Origin: Corallococcus macrosporus
GTDB taxonomy: Bacteria; Myxococcota; Myxococcia; Myxococcales; Myxococcaceae
Assembly (NCBI RefSeq): GCF_017302985.1
Contig: NZ_JAFIMU010000007.1
Span: forward strand, 1,488,001-1,552,000
DNA length: 64,000 nucleotides
Reading direction: 5' to 3'
This document shows, piece after piece, positions 50,991 through 53,465 of the stretch. Numbering within the stretch: position 1 is the first letter of the stretch; every line of letters begins with the position of its first letter. A model generated the notes under the pieces. The model saw only the letters and a program-made list of their open reading frames with translations, was not told the origin of the DNA and searched no databases. The translations under genes and the position numbers were made by a program.

Positions 50991-51533
50991 TCAGGCGCCC
51001 AGCACCTGCCGCAGCACGGACTGGAAGTAGTTCGTGCTGCCGATGTGGCCCGCGTGCAGCTTGGCGGACTGGTGGAGCCGCTGGGCGACGGCCTCGAACT
51101 CCGCCTGGCTGACGTCGCGCAGGGACAGGTACAGGCGGGCGGCGGCGCGCAGGTAGGAGAAGAGGGGGTTCTTGTGGTGGCCGTCGGGCCGGCGCGCGAG
51201 GTGCCGGTAGAGCTGGGAGAACTCCTGGTCCACTTCCGCGTGGCGGGTGTCGCGGCAGAAGCCGGCGGCGGTGGCCTCGACGAGGAAGAAGAACGGCTCG
51301 TACTCGGGGAAGGGGGGCCGGGTGAAGTCCGGGGGCTGCTTGTTCCCGGTCCACAGCGCGGCGATGGGCTGCAGGCGCACGTGGGCGGTGACGTCGCCGA
51401 AGCGCACGGGGACCTCGTCGCCCACGGGCTTCACCTGGCCCTGTTCGTCCCGTTCCACGGGGATGAACAGGCGCATGGGGTCCTCCACCTTCACGCCCGC
51501 CTTCTCCAGCTCCGCCACCACGTTCGCGTCCAT
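50991..51533 (-). CDS. Hypothetical protein, 180 residues
   Basis: A soluble protein with a mixed alpha/beta pattern: EVPVRFGDVTAHVRLQPIAALW, then YEPFFFLVEATAAGF and YLRAAARLYLSLRDVSQAEFEAV. No signal or membrane helix, no family recognised. ATG 51533 is used; GGAGG is 12 bases upstream, a little far. It is transcribed away from the winged-helix module. Confidence 0.6.
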   Translation of the reverse strand: MDANVVAELEKAGVKVEDPMRLFIPVERDEQGQVKPVGDEVPVRFGDVTAHVRLQPIAALWTGNKQPPDFTRPPFPEYEPFFFLVEATAAGFCRDTRHAEVDQEFSQLYRHLARRPDGHHKNPLFSYLRAAARLYLSLRDVSQAEFEAVAQRLHQSAKLHAGHIGSTNYFQSVLRQVLGA

Positions 51534-51609
51534 TGCGTTGATGAACCTCCGGGTCCCCGATCTACCGCGTCGCGCCCGGATGTGCACCCGGTAGAATCAC
51601 CAAGGATAC

Positions 51610-51633
51610 TGGCGATATCGCCAATAAAATTGG
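51610..51633. promoter_or_regulatory. Two overlapping palindromes upstream of the winged-helix gene
   Basis: TGGCGATATCGCCA (51610-51623) is a perfect 14-base palindrome. CCAAT-AAA-ATTGG (51621-51633) is a second, overlapping by three bases. They sit 13-36 bases before GTG 51646; TAAAAT at 51625-51630 is a plausible -10. They fit an autoregulatory operator of the winged-helix protein. Confidence 0.5.
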
Positions 51634-51645
51634 TAAATCATCTTC

Positions 51646-51987
51646 GTGCTCGACGAGGGTTCTCAGCTCTTTGGTACCTCAACTCGGACCGTGGTGCTCG
51701 TGGCCATCCGTCTGCTCGAAGGAACCTATCCCAGTGAGTTGGCGGCGCTGATTGGCGTACGCCTCTACACCGTCCAATCCATTCTGGTGTCGCTCGAACG
51801 GGAAGCAGTCATTGTCAGTCGGCTGCTGGGACGAACACGGATGGTTTCACTGAACCCCCGATACTTCGCGCATACCGAACTCAGTGCCCTGCTCTGGAAA
51901 CTCGGGGAGCGCGACATGGACCTGCAGGCCAGGCTTGCCGCGCGGCGGCGCCGTCCCCGTCGTGCTGGCAAGCCGGGACTCTTGTGA
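51646..51987 (+). CDS. Winged-helix transcriptional regulator
   Basis: A 113-residue protein. Residues 12-75 form a winged helix-turn-helix: VVLVAIRLLEGTYPSELAALIG, then VQSILVSLEREAVIV as the recognition helix and RTRMVSLNP as the wing. The rest is a basic tail (ARRRRPRRAG). The start is GTG with no ribosome site, so it may be leaderless. Base composition is lower in GC than the surroundings, hinting at transfer. The next gene starts in a GTGA overlap. Confidence 0.75.
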   Translation: MLDEGSQLFGTSTRTVVLVAIRLLEGTYPSELAALIGVRLYTVQSILVSLEREAVIVSRLLGRTRMVSLNPRYFAHTELSALLWKLGERDMDLQARLAARRRRPRRAGKPGLL

Positions 51988-52313
51988 TCGGGCCCACTTC
52001 ATCGCTGACGGATATTGTTTTCGCCGTGTGCACAGCACTGGACCGCAATGGATTCAATGCAGTGATCAAGAGCTGGAGCACTGTCCGTCGTGACGACGAG
52101 GTGCTGTACGTCTTGTCACCGACTGACTCATGCCGTGACCGGCTCGCTTCCTTCCTCTTCTGGAACGACTTCAGCGGCTTGGAGCAGGCCCTCGCTGTCT
52201 TCCATGCTCGAAGCAAGGAAGTGGACCTGAACCTCATCGAGGACTGGTGCCGACGAGAGCGTCACAGCCAGAAGTTCGGCCTGTTCGCATCACGCATTGG
52301 CGCCGCGAAGTAA
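51984..52313 (+). CDS. Orphan protein coupled to the winged-helix gene, 109 residues
   Basis: The product is alpha/beta and soluble: DIVFAVCTALDRNGFNAVIKSW, then FLFWNDFSGLEQALAVFHAR and LIEDWCRRERHSQKFGL. No family recognised; the layout (regulator plus partner, overlapping, palindromic operator) fits a toxin-antitoxin or nucleotidyltransferase-type pair, but no active-site motif is visible. It starts at GTG in the GTGA stop/start overlap. Confidence 0.6.
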   Translation: MIGPTSSLTDIVFAVCTALDRNGFNAVIKSWSTVRRDDEVLYVLSPTDSCRDRLASFLFWNDFSGLEQALAVFHARSKEVDLNLIEDWCRRERHSQKFGLFASRIGAAK

Positions 52314-52317
52314 GCGC

Positions 52318-52358
52318 GCAAAAAGCAGAAGGGCGCCGGACCGGAGTCCGACGCCCTT
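52318..52358 (-). terminator. Intrinsic terminator of tRNA-Phe
   Basis: AAGGGCG-C-CGGAC pairs with GTCCG-A-CGCCCTT (52329-52358) with a short loop, followed on the minus strand by CTG and TTTTT (52320-52324). It ends the tRNA transcript and may also stop the convergent module, whose last stop is at 52313. Confidence 0.75.
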
Positions 52359-52377
52359 CAGGTTCTTCGTACTGGTG

Positions 52378-52450
52378 TGCCCAAGGGCGGAATCGAACCA
52401 CCGACACGGGGATTTTCAGTCCCCTGCTCTACCGACTGAGCTACTTGGGC
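52378..52450 (-). tRNA. tRNA-Phe (GAA)
   Basis: A complete cloverleaf of 73 bases: acceptor GCCCAAG/CTTGGGC, D arm with AGCTCAGTCGGTAGAGC, anticodon stem GGGGA/TCCCC with loop CTGAAAA (anticodon GAA) and T loop GGTTCGATTCC. The discriminator is A. The CCA end is not directly encoded after it. A low-GC gene pair lies just 3' of it, a common place for integrated elements. Confidence 0.95.
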
Positions 52451-52541
52451 GAACCGCGCACCGCGAGCGGCAGCGCCGATTTACGGTCACTTGCCCGCGC
52501 CGTCAACCTCTTTCCGCCAACCCCTCCCCCTCGCCCGACAC

Positions 52542-53342
52542 TCAGGCCGCCAGCCGGGGCGATTCGCTGTCCCAGGCCGTGCACCCCGCCGTCAGCCGCT
52601 GGCGCAGCTTCTGGCGCAGCCCCTGCTCGATCTGCCGGATGCGCACCGCCGTCACCCCGAAGCGCTTCGCCAGGAACTCCGCGCTCACCCCGTCCTCCGC
52701 CAGCATCCGCTCCTTCACCAGCGCCCGCTCCCTCGCGTCCAGCTCCGGCCACGCCTCCGCCACGCTCTGGTGCAGCTTCTCCGCCCAGGCCCCCCGGTCC
52801 GCCAGCTCCTCCGCCGAGTCGTCCTCCGACTCGAGCATGTCCAGCCGCGTCACATCCCCCTCCCACCCCAGCGGCGCGTTCAGCGACACGTCCTTCGCCA
52901 GGGCGTCCGTCCCCCGCGCCACCTCCTCCTCCCGCTTGCCCAGCGCCTCGGCCAGCCGCTTCGTCACTTCCGGGTGGCCCTCGCCCCACCGGGCCTCCAG
53001 CCGCGCACGCTCGCGCCGCAGCTGGAAGACGATCCACGGCGCGCGGCCCCCCGCCACACTCCAGGTGCGGGACACGTACGCCCGGATGCGCGCGCGGATC
53101 CACTGCTGCGCGTAGGCGCCGAACGGCACACCCCGCTCCTCGAACCGGCGCGCCGCCTCCACCAGGCCGACGTTGCCCTCCGCCATCAGCTCCTCCAGCG
53201 ACAGGCCCGTCCAGCGGTACTTCCAGGCCAGCCGGCGGACCAGCTCCAGGTGCCCCCGCACCCGCATCTCCACTTCCGCGGAGTCCACCTCGGACTCGAC
53301 AAACTCGACCGTGGACTCGCGCTCCTCGTAGATGGCTTCCAT
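52542..53342 (-). CDS. RNA polymerase sigma factor, RpoH/sigma-32-like
   Basis: A 266-residue sigma-70-family protein. Region 2 reads RGHLELVRRLAWKYRWTGLSLEELMAEGN with the RpoD-type core, then GLVEAARRFEERGVPFGAYAQQWIRARI with the -10-contacting helix. Region 4 is ERALVKERMLAEDGVSAEFLAKRFGVTAVRIRQIEQ, a helix-turn-helix. No region 1.1 and a weak RpoH box match the heat-shock and developmental sigma factors SigB/SigC/SigE of Myxococcus. ATG 53342 has GGAGG seven bases upstream. It is divergent from the LysR gene. Confidence 0.85.
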   Translation of the reverse strand: MEAIYEERESTVEFVESEVDSAEVEMRVRGHLELVRRLAWKYRWTGLSLEELMAEGNVGLVEAARRFEERGVPFGAYAQQWIRARIRAYVSRTWSVAGGRAPWIVFQLRRERARLEARWGEGHPEVTKRLAEALGKREEEVARGTDALAKDVSLNAPLGWEGDVTRLDMLESEDDSAEELADRGAWAEKLHQSVAEAWPELDARERALVKERMLAEDGVSAEFLAKRFGVTAVRIRQIEQGLRQKLRQRLTAGCTAWDSESPRLAA

Positions 53343-53465
53343 GACGCAACCTCCCCAATCAGTCCCCCGCGCATCCATCGCGCGGTGACGGGGGTAGAGA
53401 TAAGCGGGAGCGACTCTTAAAAAAATGAGCTAGTTTGGATGAAACCCTTCGGTTAAACCTAAGTC

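Follow-up and report, generated by a model that had tools for sequence, protein, structure and literature searches.

A probable detoxified copy of a mobile winged-helix–nucleotidyltransferase module at a Corallococcus tRNA-Phe gene

A low-GC gene pair beside tRNA-Phe

Next to a tRNA-Phe gene of Corallococcus macrosporus, the DNA analysed here (64,000 nucleotides within a 3.46-Mb contig, hereafter the window) contains two short genes, one encoding a small winged-helix (WH) protein and the other a partner of 109 residues (Table 1). As the first-pass annotation of the sequence had it, they overlap as GTGA at 51984-51987, are less GC-rich than their surroundings and are located just 3' of tRNA-Phe. 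Indeed, the GC content of the module (51646-52313) is 60.0% vs 71.7% across the window, of which it is the lowest stretch (none of 6171 overlapping 668-bp segments of the 64 kb is as low, the minimum elsewhere being 62.9%), and its end lies 63 bp off the 3' end of the tRNA gene (52377..52450). Chance open reading frames are ruled out by the conservation of both proteins, with dN/dS well below 1. Between 50900 and 53500, the tRNA alone passes the Rfam cut-offs for structured RNA.

Table 1. Features of the locus, in window coordinates
Feature	Position	Strand	Remarks
Left-bounding 198-aa gene	50991..51587	-	found in 16/16 congeneric genomes
Tandem operator (predicted)	51600..51633	+	15/16 fixed bases; same array before 15/15 Myxococcota pairs
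WH gene	51646..51987	+	113 aa, GTG start; open reading frame
Stop/start overlap GTGA	51984..51987	+	read from the sequence
Partner gene	51984..52313	+	109 aa, GTG start; remnant of a predicted nucleotidyltransferase (NTase)
Deletion junction, in-frame 207 bp	52062..52065	.	single-gap comparison with G011
Segment 3' of tRNA-Phe	52314..52376	-	terminator-like hairpin at 52328-52359
tRNA-Phe (GAA), putative integration site	52377..52450	-	Rfam 70.6 bits
Right-bounding sigma-factor-like gene, beyond the tRNA	52542..53378	-	found in 16/16 congeneric genomes

Regarding the bounding genes, the name sigma-factor-like given to 52542..53378 is a reading of the sequence and of weaker relatives, and the 198-aa gene (50991..51587) matches no family at its cut-off in family searches. 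The latter shows high dN/dS values, 0.74-1.13, between clades for several pairs, contains an internal stop in G005 and is split into two separate pieces in G006 (genomes are numbered, G000 being that of the window and the congeneric set comprising 16 genomes).

Two palindromes had been reported upstream of the WH gene, TGGCGATATCGCCA at 51610-51623 and CCAATAAAATTGG at 51621-51633. Both are present; they are, however, not separate elements but parts of one tandem array, made of two copies of a 13-bp element, CCAA-N5-TTGG, at a spacing of 21 bp (an exact one at 51621-51633 and one with a single mismatch at 51600-51612), TGGCGATATCGCCA being the join between them. The stretch 51600-51633 matches 15 of the 16 fixed bases of CCAA-N5-TTGG-N8-CCAA-N5-TTGG, a score that 1000 dinucleotide shuffles of the 100 bp upstream never reached, and it is the sole site of the window scoring at least 13/16 for this tandem pattern (which, being palindromic, gives the same place on both strands). 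Among the 15 Myxococcota pairs described below, 14 carry 14-16 of the 16 fixed bases (0/1000 dinucleotide shuffles each), while the fifteenth, L107, scores 16/16 with its full upstream stretch, the shuffle test bearing there on a shorter stretch only (10/16, reached by 84 of 1000 shuffles). Outside the phylum, seven pairs were scored (L114 left out), and the array was found before one of them, L115 from Eremiobacterota (13/16, 0/1000 shuffles), and was absent from the other six. The array is retained where the surrounding sequence differs between pairs, an indication of autorepression by the WH protein. A sigma-70 consensus scan of 51500-52460 gave no promoter-like site. A genome-wide regulon was also considered and rejected: with at most one mismatch, TTGGCNATATNNCCAA occurs at three places of the genome, one of them being the module, and a reversed control pattern occurs at one.

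The 113-aa WH protein itself gives weak matches to helix-turn-helix (HTH) profiles. In all pairs, the WH proteins are 109-119 aa long and combine a single HTH region with a basic tail, their C-terminal end forming the family motif RRRPRR-GKP in a 17-sequence alignment; their reading frame is open in 15/15 Myxococcota pairs. A match to the PADLOC model PDC-M05A (E 5e-4) looks like generic HTH similarity and was discarded, and comparison of the WH and NTase family profiles revealed no similarity. The WH protein is a probable, if putative, autorepressor or antitoxin.

The partner gene and its intact relatives

Of 59 genomes searched, nine (the window genome included) contain the WH and partner genes together. 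In seven of the eight others the partner is 178-181 aa long, which explains why it is matched there in two pieces or within a longer frame; in the eighth, G028, it has 137 aa. Six further pairs from the Myxococcota encode partners of 178-186 aa, and over this whole range of 178-186 aa the intact relatives have a predicted NTase fold. Aligned with an intact 178-aa protein, the window copy corresponds to residues 1-27 and 97-178, residues 28-96 being gone; in comparison with G011, the deletion is one in-frame 207-bp gap with 2 bp of microhomology, 300 of the 330 bases being matched. The removed part holds the GGS and SxDxD motifs and, with them, invariant columns of the family (the GG of LTGGSAAT, and S44, D48 and F49 of YQSxDxDF). 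Because these residues are missing and in view of the fold of the intact relatives, the window protein is, by its alignment, an NTase without its active site, and this copy is probably dead, its catalytic part having been deleted. The "unrecognised" partner described earlier is, on this reading, a deletion derivative from a predicted NTase family.

In a 16-sequence alignment, the intact relatives carry the NTase motifs GGSAAT and SxDxDF. Motifs I and II of AbiE/DUF1814, hG[G/S]x9-15DhD, are found in them as VLTGGSAAT and D46-x-D48, with 14 residues between. S44, the Ser of SxD, is conserved in 16/16 intact relatives and deleted from the window copy; judged by the motif, it would sit where MenT1 T39 and MenT3 S78 sit, which are described as phosphorylated residues (PMC11375011, PMC10435456). 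R122 and D131 are invariant in the same alignment and may take the places of the AbiE motif III lysine and motif IV aspartate. D46 is present in 14 of the 16 intact relatives and replaced by Asn in two. The full-length protein of C. sicarius (G004; L100 4001-4534) carries D46N, at the place which, by motif, is that of MenT1 D41, whose change to Ala is reported to abolish toxicity (PMC10435456), and the substitution looks inactivating. It was left uncounted as a lesion, since a distant, full-length family member from Fimbriimonadaceae (L113 4001-4558) also has Asn at the first catalytic Asp of SxDxD; these Asn-bearing enzymes may be either inactive or tolerant.

Modelled by AF2 from the 16-sequence alignment, the intact protein of Corallococcus sp. 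CA053C (G001) has a mean pLDDT of 92.6. Its nearest solved fold is that of MenT1 (8an5; Z 12.4, 168 aligned residues, rmsd 4.5, 10% identity), tied with a fungal NTase-like protein (Z 12.1) and followed by ANT(2'')-Ia (Z 11.2), MenT3 (Z 10.0) and LnuA (Z 9.8), in a fold library that omits some families and in which the absence of a family is uninformative. Foldseek returned the same families, none at E 0.001 or better (best 1.2e-3). At the sequence level, the intact protein has no match among Pfam NTase families up to E 5 or among NCBIfam families up to E 1, no Pfam or NCBIfam AbiEi model matches the pair, and the NTase family profile finds no solved NTase. The PADLOC AbiEii model touches the motif region over 50 residues (E 0.008-0.011), and the 109-aa remnant matches the phage protein family phrog_13263 (E 9.9e-10).

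With phrog_13263 as query, matches were obtained in 16 of 195 genomes of the phylum and in none of 14 control genomes. Fifteen of them are WH-NTase pairs; the sixteenth, in G025, is a lone relative near which no WH of the module's family was found and which was left out of the pairs. This NTase (L121 1825-2493, minus strand) displays the motifs GGGAA and SGDIDF. A scan of genome contigs yielded 17 loci, including eight from Eremiobacterota, WPS-2, a Fimbriimonadaceae genome and an unplaced bacterium, all eight at 44-55% identity and with the NTase immediately preceded by a WH frame. NTase relatives are moreover present in 17 of 72,556 plasmid records, from Leptospira (14), Bdellovibrio, Sulfurospirillum and Sulfurimonas (one each). 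Three of these records were inspected (Bdellovibrio, Sulfurospirillum and Leptospira): the Bdellovibrio and Sulfurospirillum plasmids carry 330-bp and 537-bp genes with a 4-bp overlap, and their WH proteins score 72 and 85 bits against the WH profile. On the Leptospira noguchii plasmid (L127), the NTase is annotated as hypothetical and preceded by an unannotated WH-like frame.

Two phage families of uncharacterised role match the pair, phrog_18520 the WH protein (E 2.8e-4) and phrog_13263 the intact NTase (E 9e-26), and these matches say that phage-borne members exist somewhere. A phage origin of the window module was nonetheless rejected: in tblastn searches of phage records, the 109-aa protein gave four weak matches and the WH protein none, and the best match, in Stenotrophomonas phage Sonora (E 4e-3), is surrounded by tail genes, immediately following that for the tape measure protein, and is not read here as a relative. 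Nothing was found for the intact NTase among phages, and two viral-contig scans confirmed no locus. A search of open-access papers by title and start of abstract found none describing the pair.

With ANT(2'')-Ia and LnuA among the nearest solved structures, the intact pair could be a repressor-controlled small-molecule or antibiotic NTase of the ANT/Lnu type, carried as accessory cargo and merely broken in the window. However, MenT1 ranks above the ANT entries, and size, coupling and operator match the logic of toxin-antitoxin (TA) systems. The insertion site is moreover common to HipBA and restriction genes (see below), and plasmids bear the family in bacteria of three more phyla (two pairs seen). 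An antibiotic-modifying function therefore appears unlikely.

In addition to the window copy, G028, from another genus, has undergone a separate in-frame loss of the same catalytic motifs. The structure of the 109-aa protein, whose prediction the first-pass annotation had advised, was modelled with a mean pLDDT of 74.7, poorly in residues 1-40 and at about 90 in the C-terminal helices. Lineage-unique changes in the C-terminal part of the window copy are seven synonymous and no non-synonymous (seven and four, respectively, in the WH gene), a bias absent from the intact copies compared (1 and 1 in G005, 2 and 6 in G014, 0 and 3 in G004). This 7:0 pattern is compatible with a recent deletion as well as with a retained function. 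Together with the well-modelled helices and the fact that both independent deletions stay in frame, it may be taken to mean that the remnant works, its C-terminal helical domain acting as a co-repressor of, or scaffold for, the WH protein in a locus turned pure regulator. Yet a recent deletion gives the same pattern, the first 40 residues model poorly, two in-frame events would by our reckoning arise by luck in 1 case in 9, and AbiEii is reported to have added nothing to repression by AbiEi (PMC3985639). We consider a working remnant to be quite doubtful.

The tRNA-Phe site and its occupants

A comparison with close relatives had been proposed at first pass, a pair universal at this place and of normal codon use being seen as an argument against acquisition. 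The module proved to be patchy: 7 of the 16 congeneric genomes carry it (G000, G001, G003, G004, G005, G011 and G014), always at the tRNA-Phe site. The bounding 198-aa and sigma-factor-like genes are on one contig, 0.9-11 kb apart, in 14 of the 16 genomes, contig breaks falling between them in G004 and G015. Empty sites are seen in G002, G010 and G013, where the same 169-aa gene runs directly into the terminator and the tRNA.

In G003 and G011, the operator is immediately preceded by an 81-bp copy of the tRNA end and of the region 3' of it. The copied stretch, to the left of the module, comprises the equivalent of 52314..52376 and the last 18 nt of the tRNA, and its identity is 87.7% in G003 and 92.6% in G011; the 22-nt tRNA end in the copy has one mismatch in the former and none in the latter. 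The copy of G005 is degenerate (four mismatches), in G001 the terminator part alone is recognisable, and G000 (the window genome), G004 and G014 showed no copy of the tRNA end on the left. Between the repeats, the unit of G005 measures less than 1 kb and holds the pair alone, to which those of G003 and G011 add a NERD-UvrD helicase gene. No recombinase or integrase was recognised between the repeats of these three genomes, the other open reading frames there overlapping the named genes. The 859-aa protein of G011 (L065 2615-5194), located between the module and tRNA-Phe, associates NERD-UvrD helicase-like parts with a C-terminal Peptidase_S24 domain, which is an unusual combination; its G003 copy is 98.5% identical.

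Synonymous divergence was compared between the module and its flanks, keeping in mind that dS is noisy for short genes of unusual composition. Between G000 and G011, dS reaches 0.65 in the WH gene and 0.38 in the part encoding NTase residues 97-178 vs 0.07-0.12 in the flanks; between G001 and G139 (Myxococcus RHSTA-1-4), it is 0.18 and 0.10 vs 0.32-0.34; and between G011 and G003, 0.07-0.09 vs 0.08-0.11. The module/flank ratio hence extends from about 0.3-fold (G001-G139) to about 5-fold (G000-G011). Moreover, an AU test on the module data rejects the tree of the flanks (p 1.3e-4), even if the latter has weak nodes within the genus and the module tree still groups the four nearest Corallococcus copies. 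As dS disagrees with the flanks in both directions and the flank topology is rejected, we conclude from these comparisons that the module underwent repeated transfer or replacement at the tRNA-Phe site. The presence of the module at tRNA-Phe in another genus (G139 and G151) and the grouping of those four copies would suit a merely tolerant gap, with vertical inheritance, many losses and chance tandem duplications of the tRNA end, but the spread of dS ratios, the rejected flank tree and the nearly or fully intact 22-nt tRNA end directly before the operator make this very improbable.

The site hosts other cargo, which was identified from eight proteins chosen among the open reading frames listed, one of them having no Pfam family and three having nothing in PADLOC. 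The interval contains a HipA kinase and a HipB-like HTH protein in G015 (L078 2157-3652; HipA_C E 1.2e-45), an Mrr-type restriction enzyme in G008 (PADLOC mREase_IV, E 1e-81), the NERD-UvrD helicase in G003 and G011, a PLD-family protein in G001 and an eCIS-core protein in G007. By our own reading of its open reading frames, G009 has transporter-like and other genes in this interval, so the cargo is not all defence. In G015, a short open reading frame between HipA and the tRNA resembles, by eye, the end of a transposase. No open-access paper on a Corallococcus tRNA-Phe hotspot was found by title or start of abstract.

A probable detoxified module and its likeness to known systems

The module had been proposed to be a small acquired regulatory or toxin-antitoxin-like unit. 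Its presence in 7/16 genomes, its synonymous divergence discordant with that of its neighbours, the tRNA-Phe 3' end duplicated in three relatives, the conserved operator and a partner family with an NTase-toxin-like predicted fold all fit this proposal. By analogy, the module would be a small TA-like unit, probably made of a toxin and its own repressor. We favour the view that the window holds a detoxified copy of a mobile TA-like WH-NTase module belonging to an unnamed AbiE/MenAT-like family, and regard it as reasonably probable.

For this module, we infer repression, toxicity, antitoxicity, the substrate and the action of an integrase in trans along the following lines. The 113-aa WH protein would bind the tandem CCAA-N5-TTGG sites, whose 21-bp spacing corresponds to two turns and would place them on one face of the DNA, and thereby repress the operon to which it belongs. 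The translationally coupled second gene would produce a 178-aa pol-beta-type NTase resembling MenT1, transferring nucleotides to an RNA essential to the cell (the tRNA 3' end, by analogy) and stopping growth, with the WH protein restraining it by repression, by contact or by both. The unit would have entered Corallococcus by site-specific integration at the tRNA-Phe 3' end, thanks to a recombinase from elsewhere. Finally, in this genome, a deletion across the 2-bp microhomology would have taken out the catalytic motifs in frame and spared the repressor, the operator and the C-terminal helical part.

One may go further and suppose that selection kept the repressor/antitoxin, the operator array and the C-terminal domain and dropped catalysis, making the window copy an antidote element that silences or tolerates incoming toxin-bearing copies, which would invade tRNA-Phe or ride plasmids. 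Such a role seems a long shot. If true, the recurrent in-frame excision of the active site in two genera would represent the adaptive taming of an unnamed NTase toxin family.

If the module is indeed a detoxified TA-like unit, a compact and unnamed WH-NTase family is to be added, ranging over Myxococcota, Eremiobacterota/WPS-2, a Fimbriimonadaceae genome and plasmids of Bdellovibrio and Sulfurospirillum, NTase relatives being also carried by plasmids of Leptospira and Sulfurimonas. As the antitoxin would then consist of nothing but a winged helix, whether repression alone can hold an NTase toxin becomes a directly testable question. The window copy and G028 also offer natural active-site deletion mutants. 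In addition, the Corallococcus tRNA-Phe hotspot provides empty and occupied sites for comparison.

Among known systems, MenAT1 of M. tuberculosis has the nearest fold, MenT1 being likewise a small single-chain NTase of similar length with an SxD/TxD motif. It differs by its 10% identity, by the missing active site of the window copy and by its partner, here a winged helix, whereas MenA1, of 68 aa, is described as having no DNA-binding domain (PMC10435456). The intact relatives share the MenT1 fold, which as such shows no function. The type IV TA system AbiE (AbiEi/AbiEii) has the same bicistronic order, a winged-HTH gene before an NTase gene, and AbiE-type antitoxins are reported to bind promoter repeats (PMC3985639, PMC7319586), to which the conserved tandem repeats found here can be likened. 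Unlike the two-domain AbiEi, however, whose C-terminal domain is reported to suffice for antitoxicity (PMC3985639), the 113-aa WH protein has no C-terminal antitoxic domain, and the NTase reaches AbiEii only in PADLOC, at the E-values given above, and no Pfam model. The COG4861-COG4849 pairs, described as regulator-NTase pairs (PMC3985639), also associate a predicted transcriptional regulator with a following NTase of the same superfamily, a likeness drawn from their description only. Regarding phages, phrog_18520 and phrog_13263 match the WH and NTase sequences, with no matching phage or viral contig beyond weak hits. With tRNA-targeted integrative elements and defence hotspots, the site shares the insertion at a tRNA 3' end, the duplicated end and a TA or restriction cargo; it differs from such elements in that no integrase of its own was recognised between the repeats, the G005 unit holding the pair alone. 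Matching no curated profile and having no AbiEi C-terminal domain, the intact pair falls outside AbiE and MenAT as defined, yet it most likely works as they do, with a minimal protein serving as both antitoxin and repressor.
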